Of a stretch of DNA of 50,353 bases, positions 6,167-50,353 are shown in pieces. Location of the stretch: positions 1 to 50,353 of the forward strand of contig CALMST010000283.1 of assembly GCA_937872315.1 (NCBI GenBank), read 5' to 3'. The notes below the pieces were generated by a model, which ran no database searches, was not told the DNA's origin, and worked only from the letters and a program-made list of their open reading frames with translations. This DNA is from an uncultured Ignavibacteria bacterium. Lineage in GTDB: Bacteria; Bacteroidota; Ignavibacteria; Tepidaquicellales; Tepidaquicellaceae. A program made the position numbers and the translations under genes. Numbering within the stretch: the first letter of the stretch is position 1; every line of letters starts with the position of its first letter.

Positions 6167-7825
6167 TCATACAGTTTCGAGATACTTATGTACCATTCCA
6201 ATCGTAGCCGAACCTTCACCTACAGCAGCAGCTACACGCTTTCCGGATCCTGAACGAATATCTCCCGCCGCAAAAAGTCCGGGAACGTTTGTTTCCAGAA
6301 GAAACGGATCCCGGTCAAGTGTCCAGCCTTTTATTTTGTTATTTTCTCGAGGAAGATCCAAACCCGTGTATATGAATCCTTTTTCATCAGTTTCAATTAA
6401 ACCTTTCAGAATGTCCGTTCTTGGTGCAGCTCCTATGAATATGAATACAGCGCAGGTATCCAATTCCCAGTCTTTATTTTCATCTATGCTGTGCAGTGAT
6501 ATTTTTTCGAGTTTTTCACTTCCTATCACTGAATTCACTTCGGTCTTTGTTAAAATTTTTATGTTTGGCGCAGCTTCAATTCTTTCTACAAGATAGCTGG
6601 ACATTGCTTTTCCAAGATTATCAGCTCTTACAATCATTGTGACAGTTCTTGCATATCGTGAAAAGAATAATGCACCCTGCCCTGCTGAATTTGCTCCTCC
6701 CAGTACGCAAATATCCTGATCCTTGTATAAAGCAGCTTCTGTCATTGCAGCTCCGTAATAAACACCCGTTCCTACAAATTTTTCAATTCCTTCTTTTTCC
6801 AGCATTCTGACAGAAACACCTGCGGTAAAGACTACAGCATAGGAAGAAACTTCATTGCCGTTTGCTAATCTAAGAGTTTTATACGGCTGTTTAACTTTAA
6901 CGGAAACCACTTCCTGAGTTAGAATCTCAGCACCAAATCTTTTTACCTGTGTCGCAGCTCTTCTAGCCAGATCCGCTCCAGTGATTCCGGATGGAAATCC
7001 CAGATAGTTTTCTATCTGCGAACTTGTACCTGCCTGCCCTCCGGGCGCATTCTGCTCTATGATCAGTGTTTTAAGACCTTCTGAAGCTCCGTAAACTGCC
7101 GCTGCAAGTCCGGCCGGTCCGGCTCCTACAATAATAAGATCATAAAAATCAAGTTTGGCTTTTGTCTGTAATCCAACTTTTTCGGCGATCTCATTATTGG
7201 AAGGTTTTAAAAGTGTGGTACCGTCAGGGAATGTAACAACTGGTAAATTTGCAATCTCACCTGCGGCTTTAAGAGCAAGCTCCTTCATTGATTCATCCGT
7301 ATCTATATCTATCCACTGATAAGGGATCAGATTCCTTGAAAGAAATTCTTTCAATGAATAGCAGCTTGAAGACCATCTGGTTCCGAAGACCCTTATCCCG
7401 TCATATGGAAGTTTTATGTTTGCGGACCATTCATATAACAGATCATCAAGTACGGGATACAGTTTTTCTTCCGGAGGATTCCACGGTTTAAGCAAATAGA
7501 AATCCAATTTGATATCATTTATAGCCCTTATAGCTGCTTCTATATCTGAGTATGCAGTCAGAAGAACCATTTTTGCTTCCGGAAAGATTTCTTTCGCTTT
7601 TTCAAGAAATTCAATGCCTTCCATTTCAGGCATTCTCTGATCAGAAATAAATAAAGCTACTGTTTCATTTTTCTTTTTAAGCTCCTGAATCAGTTCAAGA
7701 CAGCCAACAGCTGAATCAGCTCCGCTAATCCTGTATTCTTCGCGGTATTTGTTTCTTACATCCCTTTGAATTGATCTGAGGACCTGTTCATCGTCATCAA
7801 CAATTATTATAAAAGGCAGTTTCAT
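6167..7825 (-). CDS. Response regulator fused to glutaredoxin-like and thioredoxin reductase-like domains
   Basis: A 552-residue three-part fusion. Residues 1-120 are a receiver domain with acidic pocket D10-D12, phosphoacceptor D62 (ISDQRMPEMEG) and K113. Residues about 143-220 resemble a glutaredoxin/thioredoxin fold (IRVFGTRWSSSC, then NLPVVTF) in which the first cysteine of the active pair is serine (S152-x-x-C155). Residues 229-552 are an FAD/NAD(P) oxidoreductase of the thioredoxin reductase type: GAGPAGLAAA for FAD, GGANSAGQ for the nucleotide, and GLFAAGDIR near the end. The usual redox CxxC of thioredoxin reductase is replaced by GAAM at 358-361. It follows the histidine kinase gene by 9 bases, so the kinase probably phosphorylates it. 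What the flavin domain reduces, if anything, is unknown. Confidence 0.93.
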   Translation of the reverse strand: MKLPFIIIVDDDEQVLRSIQRDVRNKYREEYRISGADSAVGCLELIQELKKKNETVALFISDQRMPEMEGIEFLEKAKEIFPEAKMVLLTAYSDIEAAIRAINDIKLDFYLLKPWNPPEEKLYPVLDDLLYEWSANIKLPYDGIRVFGTRWSSSCYSLKEFLSRNLIPYQWIDIDTDESMKELALKAAGEIANLPVVTFPDGTTLLKPSNNEIAEKVGLQTKAKLDFYDLIIVGAGPAGLAAAVYGASEGLKTLIIEQNAPGGQAGTSSQIENYLGFPSGITGADLARRAATQVKRFGAEILTQEVVSVKVKQPYKTLRLANGNEVSSYAVVFTAGVSVRMLEKEGIEKFVGTGVYYGAAMTEAALYKDQDICVLGGANSAGQGALFFSRYARTVTMIVRADNLGKAMSSYLVERIEAAPNIKILTKTEVNSVIGSEKLEKISLHSIDENKDWELDTCAVFIFIGAAPRTDILKGLIETDEKGFIYTGLDLPRENNKIKGWTLDRDPFLLETNVPGLFAAGDIRSGSGKRVAAAVGEGSATIGMVHKYLETV

Positions 7826-7834
7826 ATATTATTT

Positions 7835-9256
7835 TTATTTAATTTCAGAAATAGGGAGATTAATTATAAACTCAGTTCTTCCCGGCTTGGAGTTTACGGA
7901 TATTTCTCCGTTATGTCTTTTTACAATCCTGTTTACAAGATCCAGACCGATTCCTGTTCCATCGCCTACTTTTTTGGTTGTAAAAAACGGATCAAAAATC
8001 CTTGACTGAATATCCTCAGGTATCCCAACTCCATTATCAATAAACTTAACAGTAACCGAATTATCATTGCAAATTGTCTCAATCGACAGTTCACCGTTTT
8101 TTTCCAAAGCATATACTGCATTGTCAATAATATTTGTCCATACCTGATTGAGCTCTCCTATATATGCAGGGACTTCAGTTAAATTTTCACAATATAATTT
8201 TTTTACCTGAATATTCTTTTCACGGAGTTTATGTCCCAGAAGAGTAAGCGTATTTTCAATATCCTTATTAAGATCTGTTGGCTGCAGTTCATTTGTTTTG
8301 TCCATGTGTACGTGACTTTTTATTGCACCTACAAGATGGGATATCCGGGATGATGCTTCTTCCAGATCCTGCAGGATCTTCTTTGAACTTAATAAATTTT
8401 CGAGCCAGTTCATTATATATTTTAAAGAATCCTTTTCAAAAACACTGCAAAACCCGTCCAGATCTTCTGAAGTAAATCCCGCATCTACAAATGTCTCTCC
8501 GGTAATGAGATCTTCGGATAATCCTTTCTTATCCAGCCAGTCAAATATTTCATCTTCACGATTCATGCGTTCAATTGCCGTGATCTTTTTTTTACCGTCG
8601 CTATCTTTATTCTTTGCATCAACTATATAGCCAATGAATTTTAACTGGTCTGTATTAATGTTATTAGCGATCAGATCTTCTGTAAGCTGGTAATTTTTTT
8701 CAAGACGTTTGGTAAGCTCTGAAGATATCCTGTTAATGGCAGATGCTGGATTATTCAATTCGTGAGCTATTCCTGCTGCAAGTTTTCCAAGGGCACTTAC
8801 TTTTTCGTGCTGGAGTTTGACAGTTGCAAAAGATCTGGCTCTTTCAGTCATATATCCTACGATCCTTTGCACAAGTTCAGGATTCATATGTTCCAGTTCT
8901 AGAAAATGATCTTTGTGTATTTCAAGTCTTCTGACATTTCCAAGCGCGTAAGCATAGCCCGGAGAATTTTTCATCCTTGAATAAGGCAGTAATCCCCCTA
9001 CTCCACCTGTGGTCTCTTCATTCTCAAAAGTATAAAAATGTACCTTTGATCCGTTTTCATCCATGTAAAAAGTTATTTTTCCCTCAAGAAGTATCCACAT
9101 CATATCCATTGGATCACCTTTTTTAAAAATCAGTGTCCCGTCATCATATTCATTATATATAGAATGATCAAGTATCCATTGCAGATGCTCATCCGGCAAT
9201 CCTTTCAGGACAACTACTTTTTTAAGATCTTCGATTGTAATGTTCTCTATTTTCAT
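7835..9256 (-). CDS. Sensor histidine kinase with N-terminal cyclic nucleotide-binding-like domain
   Basis: A 473-residue soluble kinase. Residues about 14-130 form a cNMP-binding/CRP-type beta-barrel (LIFKKGDPMDMMWILLEGK). The HisKA segment has the phosphoacceptor H165 in AAGIAHELNNP. The catalytic ATPase domain covers roughly 360-470, with an N box (NQVWTNIIDNAVYAL), a G1 box (DNGVGIPEDI), an F box (FDPFFTTK) and a G2 box (GDGTGIGLDL). No transmembrane segment is seen, so it should sense a cytoplasmic signal; whether the barrel binds cAMP or another ligand cannot be told. It is the promoter-proximal gene of a two-gene operon with the receiver-reductase fusion and is the likely partner kinase. 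Confidence 0.93.
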   Translation of the reverse strand: MKIENITIEDLKKVVVLKGLPDEHLQWILDHSIYNEYDDGTLIFKKGDPMDMMWILLEGKITFYMDENGSKVHFYTFENEETTGGVGGLLPYSRMKNSPGYAYALGNVRRLEIHKDHFLELEHMNPELVQRIVGYMTERARSFATVKLQHEKVSALGKLAAGIAHELNNPASAINRISSELTKRLEKNYQLTEDLIANNINTDQLKFIGYIVDAKNKDSDGKKKITAIERMNREDEIFDWLDKKGLSEDLITGETFVDAGFTSEDLDGFCSVFEKDSLKYIMNWLENLLSSKKILQDLEEASSRISHLVGAIKSHVHMDKTNELQPTDLNKDIENTLTLLGHKLREKNIQVKKLYCENLTEVPAYIGELNQVWTNIIDNAVYALEKNGELSIETICNDNSVTVKFIDNGVGIPEDIQSRIFDPFFTTKKVGDGTGIGLDLVNRIVKRHNGEISVNSKPGRTEFIINLPISEIK

Positions 9257-9669: not shown

Positions 9670-10224
9670 TTAAGAATTTACTTCTGCATTTTCAGCAAGC
9701 TCCATACCCCGCTCCATTGCCTTTTTATTCAACGGAATCAGATCATGATATCTTTCTGGCAGTACTTTCTTCAGACCTTCCATCACATTTTCAAGTTCGA
9801 TAACAGGTTTTTTTCTGAGGAATGCTCCAAGTATTATCATGTTCATAACTTTTTTATTCTCCAGCTTCGTAGCTTCATTCGCCGCTTCGATCGGGACGAT
9901 CTCTATATCCGTCCTTGCAGGAGGTTTCAGTATAGTGCTGGCTTCATAGATTAGCAATCCGCCGGGTTTAACTGATTTTTCAAATTTATCCAGTGAAGGC
10001 TGATTTAAAGCGATCACAGTATCAAACAATGTAAGTATAGGTGAACTGATCGGAGTGTCGCTAATAATCACCATACAATTTGCAGTTCCGCCCCGCATCT
10101 CAGGTCCGTATGACGGCATCCAGCTTACTTCCTTGTTTTCTATTACTCCGGAATAACAAAGGATCTGACCCATTGTCAAAACTCCCTGCCCTCCGAATCC
10201 TGCTATTATAATCTCTTCTGTCAT
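9670..10224 (-). CDS. 2-oxoacid:ferredoxin oxidoreductase, gamma subunit
   Basis: A 184-residue gamma subunit of the pyruvate/2-oxoglutarate/2-oxoisovalerate:ferredoxin oxidoreductase superfamily. It opens with IIIAGFGGQGVLTMGQIL and has the conserved SYGPEMRGG stretch, which contacts coenzyme A and the other subunits in known structures. It is the last gene of a four-gene operon, one base after the beta subunit. The complex oxidatively decarboxylates a 2-oxoacid to its acyl-CoA and passes electrons to ferredoxin in the cytoplasm. Which 2-oxoacid is used cannot be decided from this subunit. Confidence 0.93.
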   Translation of the reverse strand: MTEEIIIAGFGGQGVLTMGQILCYSGVIENKEVSWMPSYGPEMRGGTANCMVIISDTPISSPILTLFDTVIALNQPSLDKFEKSVKPGGLLIYEASTILKPPARTDIEIVPIEAANEATKLENKKVMNMIILGAFLRKKPVIELENVMEGLKKVLPERYHDLIPLNKKAMERGMELAENAEVNS

Positions 10225-10225
10225 T

Positions 10226-11050
10226 TTAATTTAGATTTTCCTTTCCCGGAACTTTCAGATCACCAAGCTGATAAAACGGAAGCATATGCTCTTCCAGCCA
10301 TTTGTTCGATTCAACAGGTGTCATTTTCCAGTTTGATGGGCAGTTAGTAACTATCTCAACAAAACTTAACCCTTTATTTAATTCCTGATATTTAAATCCA
10401 TTATAAATAGCCTTTTTAGCTCTGCGCACATGAACAGGAGAATTAACTGCGACTCTTGCACAGTAATAAACTCCCGGCAGCTGAGCTATAAGTTCAGTGA
10501 TCTTCAATGGATATCCCATTTCCTGTGTATCTCTTCCAAAAGGTGAAGTGGTTGTCTTCATACCTTCAAGTGATGTTGGTGCCATCTGACCGCCGGTCAT
10601 TCCGTAAATACCATTATTTATAAATATAATCAAAATATTCTCTCCCCTGTTACAGGTATGAATAGTCTCGCCTGTTCCGATCGCAGCAAGATCTCCGTCA
10701 CCCTGATAGGAAAAAACATATCTCTCCGGAAGAACACGCTTGATACCTGTTGCAACTGCTGAAGCTCTTCCATGCGCCGCTTCGCTCATATCAATATTGA
10801 AATAATTATAAGCGAATACCGCGCAGCCTACAGGAGCTACTCCTATTGTCTTGTCCTGAATACCCATCTCATCTATCACTTCCGCTATAAGTCTGTGAGC
10901 TACACCGTGTCCGCACCCCGGACAATAATGCATTGGCGTGCTTGTAAGCGTTTCAGGTTTGTCATAGATCAGATTATCATTTATACAGATACTTTCTTCC
11001 GCTAATATATTTTCATAATGATCATCATCGATCATTCTTCTTTCGTTCAT
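10226..11050 (-). CDS. 2-oxoacid:ferredoxin oxidoreductase, beta subunit (thiamine diphosphate-binding)
   Basis: A 274-residue beta subunit. The CPGCGHG motif is at C43/C46. The thiamine diphosphate/Mg motif GDGD at 117-120 is followed about 25 residues later by N145-N146 (FINNGIYGMTGGQ). The start codon overlaps the alpha-subunit stop by four bases (ATGA), so the subunits should be made in step. The sequence does not look like the extended pyruvate-specific single-chain enzyme. It fits the VOR/KOR type, in which separate D, A, B and C subunits assemble. Confidence 0.94.
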   Translation of the reverse strand: MNERRMIDDDHYENILAEESICINDNLIYDKPETLTSTPMHYCPGCGHGVAHRLIAEVIDEMGIQDKTIGVAPVGCAVFAYNYFNIDMSEAAHGRASAVATGIKRVLPERYVFSYQGDGDLAAIGTGETIHTCNRGENILIIFINNGIYGMTGGQMAPTSLEGMKTTTSPFGRDTQEMGYPLKITELIAQLPGVYYCARVAVNSPVHVRRAKKAIYNGFKYQELNKGLSFVEIVTNCPSNWKMTPVESNKWLEEHMLPFYQLGDLKVPGKENLN

Positions 11051-12117
11051 GCTAATACTCCTTCGCTGATTTCTTCAATTTTTAAAAGTATTTCTTCCGG
11101 TGTAGGAATAATTCCACCCATCCTGCCGATAAACTCCACAGGTATTTTTCCGTTTGCAGCTAATTTTATATCTTCCACCATCTGACCTGCGTTCATTTCC
11201 ACGGTCAAAAAGATCTTCGTTCTGTCTGCAAGAGAATTAATTTCCTCATATGGAAACGGGAATAAAGTTATGGGTCTGAATACACCAACCCTTATCCCCT
11301 TATCTTTTGCAAGCTCTGCGGCTTTTTTACAGATCCTTGCCACAAGTCCGAAAGCCATTAGTACAACATCGGCATCTTCACAATTGGTCATCTCATATCT
11401 GATCTCTTCGCTTTCTATTTCCCTGTATTTTCTCTGAAGATGAAGGTTCGTTTCCTGCATTGCTTCCGGCTGAATATGTAAAGAAGTAATGATAGCTCTT
11501 TCACGGGTTTTTGGTTTACCTGTTGTTGCCCAGTCAAATAATTCAAAAGACCTTTCCATCTGAGGAAAGAGTTCAACCTTTTCCATCATCTGCCCGAGAG
11601 CTCCGTCAGTAAGTATCATTACAGGATTTCGCCATTTGAATGCCAGCTCGAAACCGAGTTTTACATGATCCACCATTTCCTGAATAGTAGAAGGAGCAAG
11701 TACTATCAGTTTATAATCTCCGTGACCGCCGCCTTTGACAGCCTGAAAATAATCCGACTGGGAAGGTTGAATCGTCCCCAGACCGGGACCTGCTCTCACT
11801 ACATTAACTAAAAGACAAGGCAGTTCTGCGCATGCAATATAAGAAATACCTTCCTGCATCAGACTTATACCCGGCGATGAGGATGATGTCATGACTTTTT
11901 TACCGGTACCTGCGGCGCCGTAGATCATATTGATCGAAGCAATTTCACTTTCCGCCTGAAGCACTACCATACCAGTTCTGGCATGGGCTTCTTTGGCAAG
12001 ATACTCAAGCACTTCAGATTGCGGAGTGATCGGATATCCGAAATAAGCGTCACAGCCGCAACGTATAGCAGCTTCAGCGAGCGCTTCATTTCCTTTCATT
12101 AATTTAAATTCTTTCAT
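11047..12117 (-). CDS. vorB: 2-oxoacid:ferredoxin oxidoreductase, alpha subunit (VorB/KorA-like)
   Basis: A 356-residue alpha subunit. It begins with LMKGNEALAEAAIRCGCDAYFGYPITPQSEVLEYL, in which the GNEA and GYPITPQ elements are typical. It has the conserved pyrimidine-side thiamine-binding fold and a C-terminal transketolase-C-like part (RVGVFRPITLFPFP). Proteins with this opening are usually annotated as VorB, the 2-oxoisovalerate (branched-chain) enzyme, and the D-A-B-C gene order supports that. The 2-oxoglutarate enzyme is close, so the substrate is uncertain and the symbol provisional. It overlaps the ferredoxin subunit upstream and the beta subunit downstream by four bases each. Confidence 0.9.
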   Translation of the reverse strand: MKEFKLMKGNEALAEAAIRCGCDAYFGYPITPQSEVLEYLAKEAHARTGMVVLQAESEIASINMIYGAAGTGKKVMTSSSSPGISLMQEGISYIACAELPCLLVNVVRAGPGLGTIQPSQSDYFQAVKGGGHGDYKLIVLAPSTIQEMVDHVKLGFELAFKWRNPVMILTDGALGQMMEKVELFPQMERSFELFDWATTGKPKTRERAIITSLHIQPEAMQETNLHLQRKYREIESEEIRYEMTNCEDADVVLMAFGLVARICKKAAELAKDKGIRVGVFRPITLFPFPYEEINSLADRTKIFLTVEMNAGQMVEDIKLAANGKIPVEFIGRMGGIIPTPEEILLKIEEISEGVLA

Positions 12118-12401
12118 GAGTTTAAGTTTACTGTTATATCACCTGTTACGTTAGTTATAGTTGCTACCTGTTCATTTTTTTTGACAGTTCTGCGGTAGAC
12201 TTTTATTACACTGTCCGGACAAACTAAAGCGCAGTTCGTACAGCCTGTACAATTATCTTCTATTTTAACAATATAATGATATCCCTTCGAATTAAGTTTT
12301 CTCGTCAATTCAAGAGACTGCTGAGGGCATGCCGAAGCGCAAAGTTCACATCCTTTGCATTTCTCAATGTCAATTACAATATCACCTTTTACTTTTGCCA
12401 T
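12114..12401 (-). CDS. 2-oxoacid:ferredoxin oxidoreductase, delta subunit (2x[4Fe-4S] ferredoxin)
   Basis: A 95-residue bacterial-type ferredoxin subunit with two complete cluster motifs: C15, C18, C21, C25 (CKGCELCASACP) and C51, C54, C57, C61 (CTGCTNCALVCP). It is the first gene of the operon and carries electrons from the catalytic subunits to soluble ferredoxin. A hairpin with a T-run lies only 28 bases upstream of its start, which leaves little room for an ordinary promoter. No Shine-Dalgarno sequence is evident. Confidence 0.93.
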   Translation of the reverse strand: MAKVKGDIVIDIEKCKGCELCASACPQQSLELTRKLNSKGYHYIVKIEDNCTGCTNCALVCPDSVIKVYRRTVKKNEQVATITNVTGDITVNLNS

Positions 12402-17570: not shown

Positions 17571-20405
17571 TTATTTTTTTAATCTCTTCGTTTTACTTTT
17601 AACCGGAACAGATGATATTCTTTTACTTTTTTTACTTACTGCCCCGTTGTTACGGGTCGTATTTCCTAAGTCTGTTGTGCTTTTCTTATATTTCCCGTTC
17701 TCATCTGATAATGCAGTTTTGTTACGGTCAAGTATGCTTTTCCTGAATACTCTTAATCCAAGATCAGCCCTGAATCCGTGAATTTCAGAATCATCTATCG
17801 CATTTAAAAATTGGATTATCTCTTTGCTTACCACCTGACCCGGCACCAGTACAGGAAATCCCGGAGGGTACGGTATGATAAATGACGAAGCAACAAGCTC
17901 CCTTCCTTTTTTTAATTCCGGAAGACAGTCTATAAGCGGTATGTATTCATAATTGTCTTCATTATATGCGAGAAAATATGCTTCACGTAGATTACCTCCG
18001 GGTACACCGGGAACTGCCTGAAATGATGAATGGAAATAACTGAAATCCGGTAATGGCGGAACATCCTTTGTAAGTGATTTTATCTTTTTAATATGTATCT
18101 CCTTCTCTCGTTTGTTTAATGCTCCGATCTCTTCATCCAATTCATCCGCAATCTTCAATAATGCATTTAAAAGATATGTTACACTTCCTCTGGTAGTTCC
18201 TATGTTTGTCATAAACAGAACAGTATTTCGTGATGTCTTATTTATCTGAATATTGAATTTATCCATCAGATACTTGTTCTTGAATGTATCACCGTCAACT
18301 CCTGTCCGTCCAATATTTAATGTTATCTTGGTCGGATCAAGAACAAATTCATCCAGCTCCCATGCTTCATCCATCTTATTCCAGCCTGTAGATTTATCAT
18401 AATATCCGGAAAGTCCGGTTTGCCTGTATTCTTTAGGTATGAAATCATTTATGGTCAGTACATCAAAATATTTACTGAGCTGTGGATTATCTGCTATCTT
18501 TGCTCTTAAAACCATTGCAAGTTCAATGCTCTTTTCGACAAGTTCATATCCCTCAAACTGCACCTGCCTTCTTCCTATATCAAGTGAAGCCAGCATCTGG
18601 TAATTAGGTGAAGTCGAAGTATGTGTCATGTAAGCTTCTAGAAAAGTACTTTCACATTTTCTTCTGTAATCTTCATCCCATATATGTATCATGGAACCTT
18701 GCCTGAAACTGCTTAAAGTTTTGTGTGTGCTTTGAGTGGAATATACCCTTATCCGGACTTTATCAGGATCAGGCATTTTTGGTTGCTCACCTCTTTTTAG
18801 TCCTTTTATATATTTTTTATACTCTTCCCTGTATCCGGCTGATTTGTATTTTTTACAGAGTTTATTTGCGGAAAACATTCCTGTCCGCTGTTTGTAGTTA
18901 TAAGTAAAGCTGGCAAATGCAAACCATGCTTCATCCCATAAAAATATCATGTCGGGTTTTATTGCAAGTATTTCCTCCATTACCCTTTGCACATTGTAAA
19001 CAAATCCGTCAAATGTACAGTTAGTAAGTAAAAGCATTTTTACTTTATCCAGACGGCCCGCATCCTTAAGCTGTAACAATTTTCTCTTTATCTGCTCAAG
19101 AGGAACAGCTCCGTACATTGAATATTCTTCAATCGGATATGAATCAAGATAAACCGGAAATGCTCCGGCCAGCACAAGACCGTAATGATGGGATTTATGA
19201 CAATCCCTGTCGATCAATACTAGATCACCCGGTTCTACCAGCGCCTGCAATACAATTTTATTTGCTGTTGATGTCCCGTTTGTCACAAAAAAAGTATGCT
19301 GGGATCCATAAGCCTTACCTGCCATCTCCTGAGCTTTTTTTAATGGTCCGGTTGGCTGAAGCAAAGAATCGAGTCCGCCTGTGGTTGCGGAAGTTTCAGC
19401 AAGAAACATGTTCCTTCCGTAAAATTCACCAAAATCAGTTATCCATCTTGACTTAAATACCGAATTACCTCTTGATATCGGCATAGCATGAAAGATTCCG
19501 GTAGGCTTCTGACTGTATTTGACAAGTGCAGAAAAAAACGGCGTTTCAAATCTTTCCCTGATACCCCTTATTATCATTAAATGAAGCTCCTGAAGATCTT
19601 CCTTCCTGTAAAATATTCTTCTGAAATTTTTTATTGTACTGTCTTTAAGATCGGTAAGAGATGTATGTGTCATGTAATATTTATCAACTTCGGGACGGAA
19701 CTGACTTATCAGCTGACCAAGTATTGGCGCTAATTCTGTATCCTGTTTGGATGACATATCCAGATTCAAAACACTCTGCACATAGGGTCTGATAAGAGAT
19801 GAAATATTTTTCGATAAATACGGCGGTGCATATCGTAATACAACAGCTTGTATGTTATAGTTAAATAATAAAGCGATCAGTGCATCCTGAAAAGATCTTT
19901 GTACAATCACTCCGTATGTAAACTGTTCTTTGGGTCCTCTCAACTCTAATAATTTGTTCTTTAATTGTATCTCTTCTTCTTCAGACATGTCTTCCACAAA
20001 CATTACGACAAAATGATTTTTTTTCTGAGTTAATGTTTCAGATTTTTTTTCAGGATTATCAGTACTTTGATCTTTACCTTTTAAGAAATCAGGATGATTT
20101 CGGTAACCGTCACTTACAAGCAAGCCTGTTGTTTCAGTTACCTGATTTGCAAGTGTAACATATTCCTTCCGGTTTACGGCTTTCTTTAATGCCTCAATAC
20201 GGGTTTTACCCGGGAATGAAAAATAAATTTCAATTCCTTCAAGTTCTTTTAAAGCTAAATGAACAGACTTTAAAATTCTTTCTTCATTTTCAGTCCCTTT
20301 CTGACACAGTGATAATTTCCTGGTTTCCTTTTTAAAAAAATTCCAGAGATCTACCCTGAGCTGGCTTATGTTATAATATTGTGATGTTTTTTTTATTTTA
20401 GTCAT
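17571..20405 (-). CDS. Orn/Lys/Arg decarboxylase, fold type I, large (944 aa)
   Basis: A PLP enzyme of the ornithine/lysine/arginine decarboxylase class. Residues about 1-290 are an N-terminal region including a wing-like segment near 130-195. The PLP domain follows, with H403/H406 in DRDCHKSHHYG, D491 in LWDEAW, and the Schiff-base lysine K562 in STQSTHKTLSSF. A C-terminal domain of about 200 residues follows, ending in a lysine-rich tail (residues about 905-944). Family members are usually 700-760 residues, so this one is unusually long. Whether it acts on ornithine, lysine or arginine cannot be read from these motifs. Neighbouring genes suggest the amine product is further metabolised. Confidence 0.9.
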   Translation of the reverse strand: MTKIKKTSQYYNISQLRVDLWNFFKKETRKLSLCQKGTENEERILKSVHLALKELEGIEIYFSFPGKTRIEALKKAVNRKEYVTLANQVTETTGLLVSDGYRNHPDFLKGKDQSTDNPEKKSETLTQKKNHFVVMFVEDMSEEEEIQLKNKLLELRGPKEQFTYGVIVQRSFQDALIALLFNYNIQAVVLRYAPPYLSKNISSLIRPYVQSVLNLDMSSKQDTELAPILGQLISQFRPEVDKYYMTHTSLTDLKDSTIKNFRRIFYRKEDLQELHLMIIRGIRERFETPFFSALVKYSQKPTGIFHAMPISRGNSVFKSRWITDFGEFYGRNMFLAETSATTGGLDSLLQPTGPLKKAQEMAGKAYGSQHTFFVTNGTSTANKIVLQALVEPGDLVLIDRDCHKSHHYGLVLAGAFPVYLDSYPIEEYSMYGAVPLEQIKRKLLQLKDAGRLDKVKMLLLTNCTFDGFVYNVQRVMEEILAIKPDMIFLWDEAWFAFASFTYNYKQRTGMFSANKLCKKYKSAGYREEYKKYIKGLKRGEQPKMPDPDKVRIRVYSTQSTHKTLSSFRQGSMIHIWDEDYRRKCESTFLEAYMTHTSTSPNYQMLASLDIGRRQVQFEGYELVEKSIELAMVLRAKIADNPQLSKYFDVLTINDFIPKEYRQTGLSGYYDKSTGWNKMDEAWELDEFVLDPTKITLNIGRTGVDGDTFKNKYLMDKFNIQINKTSRNTVLFMTNIGTTRGSVTYLLNALLKIADELDEEIGALNKREKEIHIKKIKSLTKDVPPLPDFSYFHSSFQAVPGVPGGNLREAYFLAYNEDNYEYIPLIDCLPELKKGRELVASSFIIPYPPGFPVLVPGQVVSKEIIQFLNAIDDSEIHGFRADLGLRVFRKSILDRNKTALSDENGKYKKSTTDLGNTTRNNGAVSKKSKRISSVPVKSKTKRLKK

Positions 20406-20509
20406 TTATAACTTTTAAATTTTAGAAAAGCGTCATAATGTCTGTATTGAAAAAATTCTATTGCCAAATTTTTCTTTCAGAATAATATTAAAAAAGATCA
20501 GAAAGATCA

Positions 20510-21415
20510 TTACTGCGGATCTTTAGAAAGTTCACTTTCTTTGATCCTGAGTTTTGTAAGTTTATCCAGCTTTGTTGGTTTTATCAATTGTCCGAGAGAG
20601 TCTAGATACGGATGTTTTGCTCCTTTCTCGTATATGTGAAAATAGCCGAGATGGTCCCGGAAACTTTTCAGGGTCTGACCTAGTCTCAGCACACCTAATT
20701 CCCTGCTTCGGCTGACACGGGACAAATCAAGCTCAAGCGGGAAGATCTCTTCCGTTGCGCCGGCATTGTATATTACCCTTCCGTCCGGTCCGGCTACAAT
20801 GGATAATCCGCTTCCTCCAGTGTCAAGTCCGTTTACATCAAACAAAAAACACTGGTTTACTGCTGCCATCGAGCGGGCAATAGAAAGTTCAATTTCCCTG
20901 TCAATGGTTCCGGTCAGCGTGGGATGTAATATCACTTCAGCTCCCATTACTGCAAGTGTCCTGATAGTTTCAGGAAACCACATATCATAACAGATCGATA
21001 TTCCGAATCTGCCAATGTCCGGTATATCAAATACACAGAAATCATGTCCGGCGGATACTCCTTCTTCATAAGGATAAAAAGGGAACATTTTACTGTATCT
21101 TGAAACGACTTCACCGTCAGGATTTATTACAGAAGCGGTGTTATAAATTTTTTCATCCCGTTTTTCAAATATTGAGCCGGGTATAAGCCAGATGCCGTAT
21201 TTCTCTGCCATCTCCCGCATCTCCTGTTCAAATACTCCCGGTATTTCCTGAGCTGTATGTGTTAAAGGTCCGTATCCGCACAATTCGCTGAAGACAACCA
21301 TTTCTATCCATGGATATAAATTCATTGCTATATCAAGTTTCAGTTTCATCATTTCCACATTTGGAACGACTGCCGAGACTTTCATCTGGATTCCCGCAAT
21401 TGCAAAAGGTTTCAT
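20510..21415 (-). CDS. Carbon-nitrogen hydrolase (nitrilase superfamily amidase)
   Basis: A 301-residue nitrilase-superfamily hydrolase with the Glu-Lys-Cys triad visible: E44 (VFSELCGYG), K109 (RYSKMFPF) and C142 (ISICYDMWFPE). Such enzymes cleave amides or carbamoyl groups; relatives include N-carbamoylputrescine amidohydrolase, omega-amidase and aliphatic amidase. It starts one base after the GabT-like stop codon, so the two are tightly coupled, and the decarboxylase follows after 104 bases. In this setting it could remove an amide or carbamoyl group from an amine intermediate, which is inference. No signal peptide is seen, so it is cytoplasmic. Confidence 0.9.
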   Translation of the reverse strand: MKPFAIAGIQMKVSAVVPNVEMMKLKLDIAMNLYPWIEMVVFSELCGYGPLTHTAQEIPGVFEQEMREMAEKYGIWLIPGSIFEKRDEKIYNTASVINPDGEVVSRYSKMFPFYPYEEGVSAGHDFCVFDIPDIGRFGISICYDMWFPETIRTLAVMGAEVILHPTLTGTIDREIELSIARSMAAVNQCFLFDVNGLDTGGSGLSIVAGPDGRVIYNAGATEEIFPLELDLSRVSRSRELGVLRLGQTLKSFRDHLGYFHIYEKGAKHPYLDSLGQLIKPTKLDKLTKLRIKESELSKDPQ

Positions 21416-21416
21416 T

Positions 21417-22736
21417 TTATTTTCTATTTTTAATTGTTTTGTGAATTTCTTCTTCCAGTATGTTAAGGCCTTTTTCTAACTGTTCATCCGTGATCACTAA
21501 TGGTGAAAGAATTCTGATCACGTTTTTAAACGTACCTGCGCTTATAATTATCAAACCGTTTTCTGCGCAACCGTTTATGATTTCAGTACAGATCTCTCCG
21601 TCAGGCTGATGAGGATCTCCATCTTTTACAAATTCAATAGCTGTCATTGCTCCGGTACTTCGAACGTCTCCTATTTCGGGATGTAAATTTTTCAGTTTAT
21701 CAAATCTTTCCTTTACTGTTTCGCCGATTTTTATTGCTCTTTCATTAAGTTTATTATCTTGCATGAATTGAATAGTAGCCAGAGCAGCTGCGCATGATAC
21801 GGGATTTCCGATATATGTTCCTCCGATCGTTCCCGGTATGGCTTTATCCATTATATGTGCTTTGCCAAGTACGGCTGCAATGGGCATTCCGGAACCCATT
21901 GATTTTGCATAAGTGCTGATATCAGGTTGAACTCCGTAATTCTGCCAGGAAGCCCAGTTTCCTGTTCTGCAAAACCCGCTTTGTATCTCATCAAAAATTA
22001 AAATTATACCGTGCTCGTCACAGAATTCACGAAGACCTACAAGATATTCCTCAGGTGCAGAATAAAATCCTCCTTCACCCTGTATTGGTTCAATGATAAT
22101 GGCAGCTATGTTATCCGGATTCACTATATTTTTTCCGCATTCCCTGAGCTTCTTCAATTCCATTTTTACAAATTCATCATGATCCATTTTTCCGTGATAT
22201 CTGTAAAAATTCGGGAACGCCAATCTGTAAACTTCCGGAGCAAAAGGTCCACAGCTGATTTTATAATCTATCTTACTTGTTAGTGTCATCGCCATCATTG
22301 TTCTGCCGTGGAAAGCATCTGTATATGCAAGTATTGCCGGTCTTCCTGTTGCCTGTCTTGCGATCTTGATCGCATTTTCTACAGCTTCAGCACCTGTACT
22401 GACTATCATGGCTTTTGTTTTTTCTCCGTGAGGTAATATCTCCGCAAGCTTCTCACATAGTTCTATGTAAGGTTCGTATGTAACTACATTAAAACTGGTG
22501 TGAATATATTTGCCTGCCTGCTCACAGATTGCTTTTACAACCGGCTCCGGACAATGTCCGGCGTTTACAACTCCGATACCTCCGGCAAAATCTATGAGTT
22601 CCCTGCCGTCTTCATCAATTATAACAGCGCCTTTGGCATTCTTTGCAGTTGCTATGTTGAAAATACCAACACCGTTTGCAACAATGTTTTTTCTTCTTTC
22701 TAGAAGTTCTTTTGATTTTATCTGGCTGGTTTCCAT
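21417..22736 (-). CDS. gabT: Class III aminotransferase, 4-aminobutyrate transaminase-like
   Basis: A 439-residue PLP aminotransferase of class III. STGAEAVENAIKIAR binds the phosphate, D249 lies in IFDEIQSGFCRTG, and the PLP lysine K278 lies in STYAKSMGSGMP. The wording and length closely fit GABA transaminases (GabT/PuuE), which move the amino group of 4-aminobutyrate to 2-oxoglutarate, giving succinic semialdehyde. Putrescine, 5-aminovalerate or acetylornithine transaminases are alternatives. It is the first gene of the five-gene cluster; the aldehyde dehydrogenase at the other end could oxidise its product. Confidence 0.85.
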   Translation of the reverse strand: METSQIKSKELLERRKNIVANGVGIFNIATAKNAKGAVIIDEDGRELIDFAGGIGVVNAGHCPEPVVKAICEQAGKYIHTSFNVVTYEPYIELCEKLAEILPHGEKTKAMIVSTGAEAVENAIKIARQATGRPAILAYTDAFHGRTMMAMTLTSKIDYKISCGPFAPEVYRLAFPNFYRYHGKMDHDEFVKMELKKLRECGKNIVNPDNIAAIIIEPIQGEGGFYSAPEEYLVGLREFCDEHGIILIFDEIQSGFCRTGNWASWQNYGVQPDISTYAKSMGSGMPIAAVLGKAHIMDKAIPGTIGGTYIGNPVSCAAALATIQFMQDNKLNERAIKIGETVKERFDKLKNLHPEIGDVRSTGAMTAIEFVKDGDPHQPDGEICTEIINGCAENGLIIISAGTFKNVIRILSPLVITDEQLEKGLNILEEEIHKTIKNRK

Positions 22737-23389: not shown

Positions 23390-26300
23390 TTATCGAAGCA
23401 CAACAAGTTTTTGAGTGGCAGTTTCCTTATAACCTCCGTCTTCAACAATAAATTTATAAAGGTAAGTGCCGTTTGCTATGTAATCTCCGTCATTATCCCT
23501 TCCGTCCCACGGGATCTGATTATAACCGATTGCAGGTGAGTAAATTATTTCTTTTATCAGTCTCCCTGCTAATGTGTAAATTCTGATCTTGCATACGGAA
23601 GGAACTTCCGAGCCTAGTAAATTGAAAACAAACTGTGTCTCCCCTTTCATTGGATTCGGGAAATTATAAAGATCTTTTACAAGGATTTCATCACTAACAG
23701 AGAAATCATAAACTGTAGTATCATAACTTTCAGATCCGTTCCGGTAGCTGATCTTTAATCTGTTCTGTCCGCTTAATAGCTCCGGCTTGAAAATAAATGA
23801 TCTGATATTATCAGATGCATTGTCATAACCTAAATCTGTTTTTTTGAGAATTGAATTTTCTGATCCGTTATTATAAAACGGAATATATTTATCATTAAGT
23901 ATAATGGATACATCAGAAGTATCTGTTTTATTGAACTTATTATCATTGTTCTGCTCCGCATTAATGTTGATCCTGAGCTCAGGTTTAAGACTCACAAAAT
24001 CCCCGCTGGATAGTTTCTGACCGTCGCTGAATATTTCCACAGCAGGATTATTGTTTAACAGATTAATAAGTATCTGAAGATAATTTAAATTATTAAAGCT
24101 GTAAAATTCATTTACTTTGTTTTTTGCTTTTACTTCAAGTACAAATACTGCAAATTGTCCGTCTCCTCTTATATAAGGAACTCTGAATTTTCCTTTATAA
24201 AAAGAAGTTTTTCCGGGCAGAAGATCTGCATTTAGTGTGTCTGACAATATTAGATTCTGAGAGGAAACATAAGATTTATAAATATTTATAACTGTTCCTG
24301 AAGCTTTTTCAAATCCTGCATTATCATAATTCAGGGTAAACTTAACCTCCTCTCCTAACTTTACCGCCGTATCACTTTGTGTAATGGAATTTGATTCTGT
24401 CACGAGTTCGGCAGGAAGTGTGTAATTGATCCTGAAAGAATTCAGCACCGGTGAATTCAAACCTGAAAGCGAATCAATTCTTAATTTTGCGACAAGATTC
24501 AGTTTAGGATAATTATATGCATATACATCATTCAGATCCGTAAAATTATTTGTCGTGATATTATTGTATAATAATACTGCGTCTTCGTTTTTTGTAATTC
24601 CGAAAACATCAAATTTAATATCCGAACCGGGAGGAATGCTATTGCTCCATGAAAAAGATTTCCAGGTGTTTGCAGGACCGATGAGATAGCTTACCGTTCC
24701 TTCCATACTTTTAAATGTCCTGTTCATTGAACTGACCGATTCGATCCATGCATTATTATAAGGATGAACTTCTTCAGATACCTCTCCGGGAGGAGCATTG
24801 AGATAACCAATAAAACTCCATGTATCAAAGAATCCAACCCTGAATAACTGGATCTTTGTGCTTCCGAACTGATTGAATTTCGCTATCACCGCAGAGCTTA
24901 ATAACTGTGCGCCGGCTGAATATGCAGCATTTAATCCCATCAGATAATGAGTGGAATCAAAAGTATTTAAAAAATTTAAAACTGAATCGGATGATTGAGG
25001 AACCAGGATTTTAAAATTTTTATGCTGAAGGATCTTGCCGTCCAGTTTTCTGACTTTCAGAAGATTAAGTCCTGTATTTGTTCCTGCATCCATGTGAATG
25101 CTTTGATTAAGAACACTGAAATATGATGCTTCTGCTCCGTTACTGCCAAGCGATCTTACATAAAGATTTCCGGTATATTCGCTTAATTTAATTCCATCCT
25201 GACCATAATAAGTATTATTATAATCAGAGACAGAATACTGGTTCACATTGTTTTTGAAAAGCGAAGTGTTAACATCTATGTTATCAGCCGGGATACCCGT
25301 TTCGTTTACTGCAATACCCGGATTATACCGGAGTGAGAAATGACGTGACCATCCTGCGGTATCTGATCCGTAAGAATAATTAATTCTCCAGTAAGTTAAA
25401 CGCGTGGTATCAGTGCTGATTACATTTGTTTTAAATTCAGAAGTTACACCTGAGATATTTTGTAAGACAAATGTTTTCTTCAATGGTGAATTAAAATTAA
25501 CAGTCGTATCATATTCCATGTAAAGTTTTGCCTGATCTTTTACTTTAAAAGGATTTAATATTATGAATGTTGCTGAATCCTTTGAGTTATATGAATTATC
25601 CACCGGATATAATTTCACAAATGATGCTTCTTTAGTTTCAATATTCAGTAATAAAGTATTGTCACTTCTGTTTTCATTCGGATTTGAATTATCCTGATCC
25701 AATACCAGAGATAGGTTATATATACCCGCCTTCTTGATCCTGAAGACAAATTTTACAGTGTCGGAAAATTTAAAATTTCTTAAAGTAGTATCTCTGATAA
25801 CAGTCTCAGCTGCATTAGATGAAAGCGTAAATCTAATTTTGCATGAATCGCCGTGTGTACCGAAATTTTTCGGAAATGCTTTGAATATTACATCTTCATA
25901 TATTGCGGGAGATTTATCGGAGATCGTGTAATCATTATTGCTGATCGAATATTCCGGGATCCTCGGTAATAAAAGCCTGACTGCAGGATCTCCCTGAAGT
26001 GTATAGCAATTTAGCGTATGCCTTGCCGAGAACAGACTGGAATCCTTTTTTACTACATTCAAAGCGCTGGATATTATGTCTCCTATTCTTCTGACCGAAT
26101 CAACTGCAATTGATTGATACAATTGTTTATTAAGAACACTACCGGCATAAACAAATCCCCAGCCTGAAGTACCCAGATAGCCTATGGCTCCCCTGTTCTG
26201 CATTTTCATGAATTTCTCTCCAAATGCCCTGGCTGTAGGTTCACCAACTTTTCCTGTATAGCAGGTCATGCTGAATATAAGAGGAAATTTACCGTTATAG

Positions 26301-28243
26301 TTAGTCAGTACATCCGGATCTCTCATGCCAATCTCCCAGTCCTGACTTCCGGCATGACCCATAAAATTTACTGTTGACGTTCCCCTGTTGATCTGATTTT
26401 TTATCGAATCAGAATAATTGAATGTCTGACCTCCGTTAAGATCTTCTCTTATTATCCTGACAGGATTTCCCGAAACAGACGGAGGAATAATATATGGATT
26501 TATCAGTGTATCAATCAAAGGAAGAAAGATCGCCTGTTCGACAGAGTCCGCACCGCCGCCGATAAAAGTAAATGACTTGTTCCATTCTGCGCGCGGCTGG
26601 GTTTCATATGTAATAATATTATCTACCATGTACTGGGCTTCAGTCGGTGTATATGCCGGTAATCTGCCTATTGATACCTGTGTGTAAAAAGCAAATCCGG
26701 ATGTATTCATGTTAGCAAAATAATTATCGCTTGATGGATTTCCAATTACAGGTATAAGATTCTTTTCGTATTGTGTCGTTGAAGAATTCTTTTTGGGATC
26801 TAATGAACCTCTGCCGAATAAGCATATATACCTTACCCGTGGAAGCTGCCAGTTGTTATAAACATAACGTGTGAAATTTCTCAAGGCTACGGGATCTTCT
26901 ATACCGTAATTGAATATATCATAGATATCCCTTATATCAGCTATTGTTACTCTGAAATTATCAATTGCTTCCCTGTGACTTGCAAGCTGATTTGCCTGTG
27001 ATTGGAACAAAGAGTTGTAAATTAAAAGATAATCCGTATTGTTTCCCGAAGATACATAATCCGGAACCTGTCTCTGAATTATCCGAAATGGCTTCTTTAC
27101 AATATTCTTATTAATGACCTCAAACTTCCCTGAAAGCTTACCTGAATAAATTAATGTGTCTGATACATTACTGAACGAATTTATCTTTACACCGTTTTTT
27201 ACATCATAAATAAATACGGGATTTGCCTGGTTATATCCGCTGACTTTGAATTTATAAGATGCGGTGTCATTTTGATTTGTATTGATCAGAGTCTGATTAC
27301 TTCTGAATCTGTACTGCTTAGGATAACTGATCTCAAAAAGATCAAAAAACATTAATCCTCCAAATCCACCATTGGCAATATATTTTGCAGTAACAGTATT
27401 TACCGATGAATTGCTTAGTAATGAACTTGAAAATGTAAGCGTTGTATCAATTCTTACATAATCATTTACAGTGACAGTATTTATCAGATTACCGTTAACC
27501 CTGATCTCAATGGTATGCTCGTTGAGCACCGAAGTAGAAACATTCTGAGGATAAGCTGAAACTCTTACCGTAGAATTTTGAGGCGGAGCATAAAGATACG
27601 GGATTGAAAAAGTATCTGAAAGACTTTGCTGTGAACTCAAAAGAGCCCAGTACCATGACTCTCCCCTGAACTTTTCATTTGTAAAATTTCTGAAATCCGT
27701 TCCGTTGAGATACTCTCCTATCCAGTATATTTTATCTTTTTCAAAATGGAGAGTTTCATCATAATAAGGAAGCGGGTTGTTTAATGCAGAATTAAAATTT
27801 GATATGGACATTCTTGATCCGTTACTGCCGTCCCACTCTATCCAGTATGCATTTGTGTCGGAATAAAAATTATAATATTCGTTTGACTGATAAACTACAG
27901 TATTGTTCTCATTATATGTTGGAATGATCCCTCCGTAATTTCTTGTACCGTAAAAATCGAAATAATCAGTTGAATTAAATACACCGTCATTTTCACCTTC
28001 AAAATATATTGGGATCTGTTGTCCTTTATTCATTACTTTAACTGTTCTCGGATCAATACCGGTAGTGTTAATACCGGCTGAATTAAAATCTGATGATGTG
28101 ATCCTGTAAATTCCGTCATCAGCGACAGACATTTTCATATAAGTTTTATTTGGAATGATCCAGTTATAGTTTTGTGAATATGATCTGCCCGTAAAAAATA
28201 CAGCAAGAAATAAAATAAGCGGGATATATATTGATCTTCTCAT
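23390..28243 (-). CDS. porU: Type IX secretion sortase, PorU-like (C25 peptidase family)
   Basis: A 1617-residue exported protein with a signal peptide at about residues 1-23 (MRRSIYIPLILFLAVFFTGR). The gingipain-type C25 domain spans roughly 400-770: VRYICLFGRGSLDP, then catalytic His630 in NFMGHAGSQDWE and Cys661 in FSMTCYTG. The remainder is repeated beta-rich (CARDB/Ig-like) segments. The C-terminus (NFPNPMKGETQFVF, then WDGRDNDGDYIANGTYLYKF) is a FlgD-like/type A sorting-like domain. PorU removes the C-terminal signal from secreted proteins at the cell surface and attaches them to lipid-borne sugar, in complex with PorV. It is longer than the approximately 1100-1300 residues of characterised PorU. 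A secreted C25 peptidase is the alternative. Confidence 0.85.
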   Translation of the reverse strand: MRRSIYIPLILFLAVFFTGRSYSQNYNWIIPNKTYMKMSVADDGIYRITSSDFNSAGINTTGIDPRTVKVMNKGQQIPIYFEGENDGVFNSTDYFDFYGTRNYGGIIPTYNENNTVVYQSNEYYNFYSDTNAYWIEWDGSNGSRMSISNFNSALNNPLPYYDETLHFEKDKIYWIGEYLNGTDFRNFTNEKFRGESWYWALLSSQQSLSDTFSIPYLYAPPQNSTVRVSAYPQNVSTSVLNEHTIEIRVNGNLINTVTVNDYVRIDTTLTFSSSLLSNSSVNTVTAKYIANGGFGGLMFFDLFEISYPKQYRFRSNQTLINTNQNDTASYKFKVSGYNQANPVFIYDVKNGVKINSFSNVSDTLIYSGKLSGKFEVINKNIVKKPFRIIQRQVPDYVSSGNNTDYLLIYNSLFQSQANQLASHREAIDNFRVTIADIRDIYDIFNYGIEDPVALRNFTRYVYNNWQLPRVRYICLFGRGSLDPKKNSSTTQYEKNLIPVIGNPSSDNYFANMNTSGFAFYTQVSIGRLPAYTPTEAQYMVDNIITYETQPRAEWNKSFTFIGGGADSVEQAIFLPLIDTLINPYIIPPSVSGNPVRIIREDLNGGQTFNYSDSIKNQINRGTSTVNFMGHAGSQDWEIGMRDPDVLTNYNGKFPLIFSMTCYTGKVGEPTARAFGEKFMKMQNRGAIGYLGTSGWGFVYAGSVLNKQLYQSIAVDSVRRIGDIISSALNVVKKDSSLFSARHTLNCYTLQGDPAVRLLLPRIPEYSISNNDYTISDKSPAIYEDVIFKAFPKNFGTHGDSCKIRFTLSSNAAETVIRDTTLRNFKFSDTVKFVFRIKKAGIYNLSLVLDQDNSNPNENRSDNTLLLNIETKEASFVKLYPVDNSYNSKDSATFIILNPFKVKDQAKLYMEYDTTVNFNSPLKKTFVLQNISGVTSEFKTNVISTDTTRLTYWRINYSYGSDTAGWSRHFSLRYNPGIAVNETGIPADNIDVNTSLFKNNVNQYSVSDYNNTYYGQDGIKLSEYTGNLYVRSLGSNGAEASYFSVLNQSIHMDAGTNTGLNLLKVRKLDGKILQHKNFKILVPQSSDSVLNFLNTFDSTHYLMGLNAAYSAGAQLLSSAVIAKFNQFGSTKIQLFRVGFFDTWSFIGYLNAPPGEVSEEVHPYNNAWIESVSSMNRTFKSMEGTVSYLIGPANTWKSFSWSNSIPPGSDIKFDVFGITKNEDAVLLYNNITTNNFTDLNDVYAYNYPKLNLVAKLRIDSLSGLNSPVLNSFRINYTLPAELVTESNSITQSDTAVKLGEEVKFTLNYDNAGFEKASGTVINIYKSYVSSQNLILSDTLNADLLPGKTSFYKGKFRVPYIRGDGQFAVFVLEVKAKNKVNEFYSFNNLNYLQILINLLNNNPAVEIFSDGQKLSSGDFVSLKPELRININAEQNNDNKFNKTDTSDVSIILNDKYIPFYNNGSENSILKKTDLGYDNASDNIRSFIFKPELLSGQNRLKISYRNGSESYDTTVYDFSVSDEILVKDLYNFPNPMKGETQFVFNLLGSEVPSVCKIRIYTLAGRLIKEIIYSPAIGYNQIPWDGRDNDGDYIANGTYLYKFIVEDGGYKETATQKLVVLR

Positions 28244-49072: not shown

Positions 49073-50353
49073 TTGAACAAACTATACCTTTTTATCTTTT
49101 TTCTCGCATTTACATTTCCACAAAATATAGTCAACGCGCAGACCCAGCCCGAATGGCCGACATTTACTATGACGGCAACAAATATTCAGTCTTATCCTTC
49201 CGGTCCTCCGGGACCAAATCAGCAGGATAGCATTATTACATTTGAAGTTTATCTTCAGCAAACCAATCAGGGTCAGCCAGGAGTTCATGACCTTGAATTC
49301 TGCTGCGCGCAGTATAACTGGTATTTCGATGAAGATATTTTCAGAAATCCAAGTGTTGGAAATTTAGTTCTAACAAATCTTGGAAATCAAACAGATCTTC
49401 CTGTTGCTTTAAGACCTCCTACATTCCAGGTCGATTCTACAACAGTTTGGCCGAATGTAGGTTCAGATAGAAGATTGTTAAAGACATCCGGAAATCTTCC
49501 CAACTCAAACATAAACTTTTTTATTAGCGGTTCATACCCCGGTACAAAAATTTTAAAAATGAAACTTACAACCAATGGGAGAAAATTTAACGAACTTTAT
49601 TATCATATTATAAGATGGAAATTAGGAGGAGCTCCAAATACTTTCTTAGCTTACTTTGTTCCTAATCCTCCGGGACCTGATTCAGCCAGACCACAGTTTG
49701 CGCAATCTCTCCTGGATACTAATGTAAATCAATACGTTCCTGTATACTATTATGATCCGGTTGAAATGGCAAGTTTCGTATCAACTGTTGTAAAAAATAA
49801 TGTTGAACTTAACTGGTCAACTGCTACAGAAACTAATAATCAGATGTTTGAAATAGAAAGAGCAGTTGCTAATTCTACTTCAACTGAATGGACAAAAGTA
49901 GGAACTGTGCCAGGTAATGGTACCACTACTGAGATCCGGAATTTTAATTTCACTGACAGAAGAGTAAGTACAGGCCACTACATCTACAGATTAAAACAAA
50001 TAGATTTTAATGGAACAGTTAACTATCATGATTTAAGCGATGAAGTAATTGTTGGAGTACCAACCGCATATGCATTATCACAAAACTATCCAAATCCATT
50101 TAACCCTACAACAAAGATTGATTATGAGTTACCTTATGATGGTAAAGTTAGTATTTTGCTGTATGATATTTCCGGAAGAGAAGTTGCTACATTAGTGAAT
50201 GAAGTTAAAACTGCCGGGTATTATACAATTCAGTTTTCAGCTTCAGGCGGAGTAGTAAACTTATCCAGTGGTATGTACTTTTACAGAATTATTGCTTCAG
50301 GTTCAGAAGTAAAAGACTTCGTTGCAACTAAGAAAATGCTTCTAATAAAATAG
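49073..50353 (+). CDS. Secreted protein with type IX type A sorting domain
   Basis: A complete 426-residue protein; its stop codon is the last triplet of the window. The start is TTG at 49073, followed by a signal peptide (NKLYLFIFFLAFTF, cleavage near VNA-Q). Residues about 25-230 form a domain of unknown function. Residues about 235-320 resemble a fibronectin-type segment (VELNWSTATETNNQMFEIER). Residues 333-426 are the sorting domain: QNYPNPFNPTTKI, LLYDISGREVATLV, and LSSGMYFYRI, ending KKMLLIK. The C-terminal domain directs export by the type IX system and is normally removed by PorU at the cell surface. Binding or enzyme activity is not evident. Confidence 0.93.
   Translation: MNKLYLFIFFLAFTFPQNIVNAQTQPEWPTFTMTATNIQSYPSGPPGPNQQDSIITFEVYLQQTNQGQPGVHDLEFCCAQYNWYFDEDIFRNPSVGNLVLTNLGNQTDLPVALRPPTFQVDSTTVWPNVGSDRRLLKTSGNLPNSNINFFISGSYPGTKILKMKLTTNGRKFNELYYHIIRWKLGGAPNTFLAYFVPNPPGPDSARPQFAQSLLDTNVNQYVPVYYYDPVEMASFVSTVVKNNVELNWSTATETNNQMFEIERAVANSTSTEWTKVGTVPGNGTTTEIRNFNFTDRRVSTGHYIYRLKQIDFNGTVNYHDLSDEVIVGVPTAYALSQNYPNPFNPTTKIDYELPYDGKVSILLYDISGREVATLVNEVKTAGYYTIQFSASGGVVNLSSGMYFYRIIASGSEVKDFVATKKMLLIK

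Follow-up and report, generated by a model that had tools for sequence, protein, structure and literature searches.

A receiver-linked thioredoxin reductase-like protein family without redox cysteines is paired with a histidine kinase across bacterial phyla

Results

The locus encodes a soluble histidine kinase and a three-domain fusion protein

The window analysed here is the whole of a 50,353-nucleotide stretch of DNA from an uncultured Ignavibacteria bacterium (contig CALMST010000283.1). Two neighbouring genes on its reverse strand, to which all protein features below also belong, form the locus under study and lie within 6167-9256, as initially annotated. The upstream gene (7835..9256) encodes a soluble histidine kinase of 473 amino acids and ends 9 bp before the start of the second gene. 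The latter (6167..7825) encodes a 552-residue fusion of a receiver (REC) domain, a glutaredoxin-like domain and a thioredoxin reductase (TrxR)-like putative flavoprotein domain.

Residues 36-121 of the kinase (8894..9151) form a CRP/cyclic-nucleotide-type barrel, which scores 36.2 bits against cNMP_binding (PF00027; cut-off 27.5) and confirms the barrel assigned in the initial annotation. The phospho-acceptor H165 (8762..8764), located in the H-box HELNNP, is near-invariant in 66 kinases. The HATPase domain (residues 368-469; 7850..8155; PF02518, 2e-23) contains N, G1, F and G2 boxes, so that the protein carries the full set of boxes of a histidine kinase. It gave no Pfam match to HisKA and has no obvious membrane segment. 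The barrel retains R94, an arginine of the phosphate-binding type found in 76% of the kinases. Since the position of the ribose-contacting glutamate is occupied by glycine in the window kinase and is variable in the family, cAMP is not assured as the ligand. The initial suggestion that a small ligand bound there could set the redox output is plausible.

The REC domain of the fusion (residues 5-117; 7475..7813; Response_reg PF00072, 7e-15) has the complete pocket of a response regulator, comprising the phospho-acceptor D62, the acidic residues D10-D12, T90 and K113. The glutaredoxin-like domain (residues 143-216; 7178..7399) matches the mycoredoxin model TIGR02200 at 1e-11, under the model cut-off. 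Sequence comparison places its redox-motif position at GTRWSSSCY (7358..7384), where the site is spelled W-S152-S-S-C155-Y; SSSC thus stands in place of the CxxC or CxxS of glutaredoxins and mycoredoxins. The TrxR-like FAD/NAD(P) domain spans residues 227-549 (6179..7147; Pyr_redox_2 PF07992, 2e-31; fold match with Z of 36 and rmsd of 1.5), or 227-548 by the Pfam and NCBIfam boundaries (Pyr_redox_2/TRX_reduct). Within it lie the FAD-binding GAGPAG (GxGxxG, residues 234-239; 7109..7126) and the NAD(P)-binding GGANSA (residues 376-381; 6683..6700), and the initial annotation was right that both motifs are kept. Between them is the cysteine-less redox site GTGVYYGAAMTEA (residues 352-364; 6734..6772). 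Alignment also revealed a family-specific insertion at residues 489-507 (6305..6361) with invariant W501 and R505. The fusion has the dinucleotide-binding motifs and the fold of TIGR01292 (TRX_reduct) enzymes, and scores 247.7 bits against that NCBIfam model, below the curated cut-off of 343.45. No solved REC-TrxR fusion structure was present among the 60 best PDB sequence-search matches.

The remainder of the window contains several recognizable gene groups. A ferredoxin-dependent 2-oxoacid oxidoreductase operon (9670-12401) lies directly upstream of the kinase on the same strand. A link to this operon was rejected: in L038, the one relative of the same order with 6-kb flanks, no such operon adjoins the pair. 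Consecutive genes for an Orn/Lys/Arg decarboxylase, a carbon-nitrogen hydrolase and a class III aminotransferase (17571-22736) possibly serve polyamine metabolism. A C25 (gingipain-type) peptidase of 1617 amino acids (23390-28243) and a Por_Secre_tail sorting domain (49073-50353) suggest type IX secretion.

The redox cysteines are absent throughout the family

The initial annotation placed GAAM where the redox CxxC of TrxR belongs, and comparison within the genome bears this out: the fusion reads GVYYGAAMTEA, versus GVSSCATCDGF in a separate, canonical TrxR. An additional residue that the family carries at this site leaves a one-position ambiguity in the alignment, and either GAAM or AAMT stands for CATC. 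Cysteine is found at residues 358-362 in none of 63 aligned fusions from many phyla (0/63), while Y357, G358 and E363 are invariant. In the same alignment most FAD-binding glycines are invariant and the FAD motif is nearly so, and the REC pocket is retained (D62 in 62/63, T90 and K113 in 63/63). P195 of the glutaredoxin-like domain is also invariant, and may be the cis-Pro of the thioredoxin fold.

The S-x-x-C initially noted in the glutaredoxin-like linker is correct for the window protein and does not hold for the family. Position 155 is cysteine in 5 of the 63 fusions and serine in 47, the usual family form being S-x-x-S-H, and among the copies examined within the order C155 is confined to the window's genus. 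From these counts we take S-x-x-C to be an incidental genus-level trait.

Measured against copies from the same genus, the fusion has a dN/dS of about 0.05 and the kinase one of about 0.08. These values, together with a redox site that is invariant in 63 fusions, argue that the loss of the cysteines is more than chance. Pseudogene decay is ruled out by the dN/dS of about 0.05 and the invariant sites, and a sequencing error at the CxxC by the occurrence of the same motif in every relative. As far as the alignment can tell, the loss of the TrxR cysteines is a property of the whole family and not a local accident.

Without its redox dithiol the fusion would be no thioredoxin reductase. The overall TrxR fold could speak for ordinary thioredoxin reductase activity using other cysteines, a reading that we find barely credible: no cysteine pair is conserved anywhere in the 63 aligned fusions, one member lacks cysteine altogether, any CxxC at all occurs in 1/63 and lies outside the redox site, and the genome already has its canonical TrxR. 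TrxR-like ferredoxin-NADP reductases (FNRs) also lack the dithiol. This shared absence, and the ferredoxin-dependent operon that adjoins the pair in the window, would fit a phospho-controlled, TrxR-like NAD(P)H:ferredoxin/flavodoxin reductase. We regard such an activity as very improbable, as the TRX_reduct score of the fusion far exceeds its score with the YpdA/FNR-like group and the operon does not accompany the pair in L038.

The fusion is widespread and is paired with the kinase across phyla

Among 296 genomes sampled from across the phylum, 45 contain a close relative, which in 41 of them is the full receiver fusion. Scanning species-representative genomes returned at least 80 fusion loci in many phyla; the loci listed come from Bacteroidota including Ignavibacteria, Cyanobacteria, Chloroflexota, Acidobacteriota, Actinomycetota, Pseudomonadota and others, and the closest among them (74%) is L038, from an Ignavibacteria bacterium. 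In a tree that combines the fusions and their receiver-less relatives with 25 canonical TrxRs, the cysteine-less forms split from the canonical enzymes on a long branch (support 99/95), and the receiver-less forms are nested among the fusions (support 98/98). This tree, the root of which is not fixed, is most simply explained if the dithiol was lost once.

A search for co-occurring kinase-reductase pairs, as the initial annotation had recommended, was positive. We examined 108 fusion loci, a few of which represent the same organism entered twice. At least 81 of them have a kinase homolog within 600 bp of the fusion, on the same strand in 77, and 7 further loci have one within 6 kb. The adjacent kinase is missing at about a quarter of the loci. 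The pairing of kinase and fusion holds across phyla. This adjacency and the conserved REC pocket lend support, at the level of sequence, to the initial proposal of a phosphorylation-controlled flavoenzyme or a flavoprotein attached to a receiver.

The phospho-acceptor is lost in one fusion of the 63 (L041:6001-7662), which has D62E, DNH in place of DDD, and no kinase in its flanks. The glutamate in this single case is a possible phosphomimic. In a Gloeobacterales bacterium (L058), CRP-kinase homologs flank the fusion on both sides.

Relatives were also found that have no receiver and carry a CRP barrel joined straight to the core of glutaredoxin-like and TrxR-like domains; these proteins likewise lack the TrxR CxxC. 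The same kind of input module therefore reaches the same putative flavoprotein in one of two ways, in cis or, at the window locus, apparently via a kinase and a receiver. Because the barrel takes the place of the receiver in these relatives, the flavoprotein looks like an output. The initial annotation had also raised the idea of a flavin-based redox sensor attached to a receiver. In such a reverse flow the redox state of the flavin would govern the receiver or kinase, and the fusion would serve the kinase as a redox sensor or as a sink for phosphate. Known flavin sensors such as NifL provide a precedent. We nevertheless think that a signal in this direction is improbable, given that the flavoprotein carries its receiver at the N-terminus, that the kinase has a sensor barrel of its own, and that the barrel swap marks the flavoprotein as the likely output.

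The TrxR-like domain is predicted to adopt a flavin-reducing conformation

An AlphaFold model of the fusion based on the 63-sequence alignment had a mean pLDDT of 90 and a pTM of 0.72. The modelled TrxR-like domain fits flavin-reducing structures at 1.5 Å (4up3), 2.2 Å (5mh4) and 2.5 Å (1f6m) and differs from flavin-oxidising structures by about 7-8 Å, where the conformation is named in the title of some PDB entries only and the others were assigned by the group that they fitted. The canonical TrxR of the same genome, modelled alike as a control, gave about 3 Å to flavin-oxidising and about 8 Å to flavin-reducing structures. The fusion is therefore predicted to be in the flavin-reducing conformation and the canonical TrxR in the flavin-oxidising one. 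Receiver and glutaredoxin-like domains are present in the fusion model but not in the control, and these extra domains might contribute to the modelled conformation or even force it. In the flavin-reducing state NAD(P)H should be able to reach the flavin, and the usual domain rotation would be needless because there is no dithiol. The HRRxxxR motif of TrxR, which binds the 2'-phosphate, is down to one arginine (R400) in the fusion; a weaker preference for NADPH is therefore predicted.

Both redox sites are gone while the folds and ligand motifs stay, a combination that would suit a pseudoenzyme regulator using FAD and NAD(P)H only as a gauge of redox or energy state, whose phosphorylated form binds a partner without turnover. 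There is precedent in KefF, a flavoprotein needed for full activation of KefC, whose own quinone reductase activity is not required and which activates KefC even when that activity is mutated away (PMC10224563). We consider a pseudoenzyme rather unlikely on the evidence of the active site, as E363, a possible counterpart of the TrxR catalytic acid, is invariant and the nicotinamide-facing site is conserved. Together these features hint at hydride transfer.

In relatives the fusion is linked to zf-UBP proteins and Kef-type antiporters

Small zf-UBP proteins are recurrent beside fusion loci. Among 296 genomes, the cysteine-less reductase is present in 27 of the 30 that have a zf-UBP over the cut-off, where about 5 would be expected (p 4e-23); counted by genus, co-occurrence is 16/19 (p 2e-10). 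A Kef-type antiporter (Na_H_Exchanger plus TrkA_N) is fused or adjacent at 17 of 20 zf-UBP loci. Three genomes (L128, L131 and L133) have a zf-UBP and no reductase, and there too the antiporter is fused or adjacent. Because of these three genomes, the zf-UBP association could be driven by the antiporter instead of the flavoprotein.

Operons in L151, L152 and L153 comprise the fusion, a Kef-zf-UBP protein and the kinase, and that of L157 comprises the fusion, the kinase, a zf-UBP, a DsbA-like protein and Kef. This five-gene set is of the kind carried by a Balneola-type bacterium. Antiporters with a C-terminal zf-UBP are encoded at L151:4578-6602, L152:3267-5312, L153:5668-7698 and L154:1971-4097, the last in a locus without the reductase and beside ORFs of 155 and 301 amino acids that received no tool assignment. 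A gene for a DsbA-like thioredoxin-fold protein lies beside Kef at L157:7219-7740 (by Pfam) and L146:8819-9196 (by sequence likeness).

No zf-UBP was detected in the window's genome, a draft of 386 contigs that is 96% complete, and no Kef partner lies near the window pair. The genome has three antiporter-like genes, all on other contigs. With zf-UBP absent and the antiporter genes unlinked, the antiporter link belongs to the relatives and extends to the window by inference only.

Discussion

On balance we favour a two-component system whose output is not a transcription factor but a dithiol-free flavoprotein, which would pass electrons or a shape change to a non-thiol partner, often a Kef-type antiporter. 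In this scheme the kinase would sense a ligand or state through its CRP barrel and set its autophosphorylation at H165 accordingly, and we infer that the phosphoryl group moves from there to D62 of the receiver. Phosphorylated D62 would in turn shift the TrxR-like domain or change how accessible its flavin is. This domain putatively binds FAD and NAD(P)H, with NAD(P)H reducing the FAD directly, and the reduced flavoprotein would then deliver electrons or a redox-linked shape change to its non-thiol partner. By analogy with the KefF system, the likeliest partner in many relatives would be a K+/H+ antiporter of the Kef type that has zf-UBP as a domain or as a subunit, which suggests a phospho-controlled flavoprotein that acts on the antiporter much as KefF does. 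It is tempting, if quite tentative, to extend this to a general role across many phyla, in which the dithiol-free, phosphorelay-gated flavoprotein would regulate Kef-type K+/H+ antiporters as one of their subunits, the zf-UBP would provide docking or a zinc-based link between flavoprotein and transporter, and the CRP barrel would act in cis or via the kinase.

A redox enzyme is a rare response regulator output, and the architecture described here is common across bacterial phyla. If our reading is correct, it would provide a direct phosphorylation switch on a flavoprotein, give the orphan bacterial zf-UBP domain a role, and tie two-component signalling to K+/H+ antiport.

The REC-thioredoxin reductase fusion already appears in the response regulator census of Galperin et al. 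2018 (PMC5847659), and the window protein has the REC-fused-to-TrxR-like architecture given in the accessible part of that census. In that part of the census neither the missing cysteines nor the CRP-kinase partner nor the association with zf-UBP and antiporters comes up. In the literature searched we found no functional study of a response regulator fused to TrxR, the fusion being mentioned only in this archaeal census, and none of a bacterial zf-UBP with Kef or TrxR. The pair is widespread in bacteria and apparently uncharacterised. A search of a library with few subscription journals brought up no report on the absent cysteines, the kinase partner, the swapped barrel or the tie to zf-UBP and Kef. 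Our analysis goes beyond the initial annotation in the family-wide nature of the cysteine loss, the place of the fusion type in a published census, the zf-UBP/Kef tie and the barrel fused in cis.

The Kef antiporter subunits KefF and KefG resemble the fusion of the relatives in being cytosolic flavoproteins encoded with a Kef-type antiporter, and a shared role is suggested by analogy only. KefF is of the FMN quinone-reductase type and has no receiver, whereas the window fusion has a TrxR-like FAD fold and no Kef gene at its locus. Low-Mr TrxB and AhpF have the FAD/NAD(P)H fold in common with the fusion, at about 30% identity and with Z up to 36. The fusion differs from both in lacking the redox CxxC, in its reduced HRRxxxR motif and in its predicted flavin-reducing conformation. 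The RefSeq proteins called 'cyclic nucleotide-binding domain-containing thioredoxin-disulfide reductase' have the same glutaredoxin-like and cysteine-less TrxR-like core as the window fusion, with a CRP barrel in front. The activity in that name is unlikely because the cysteines are missing. These proteins carry the barrel in cis, whereas the window pair has a receiver and a kinase instead.
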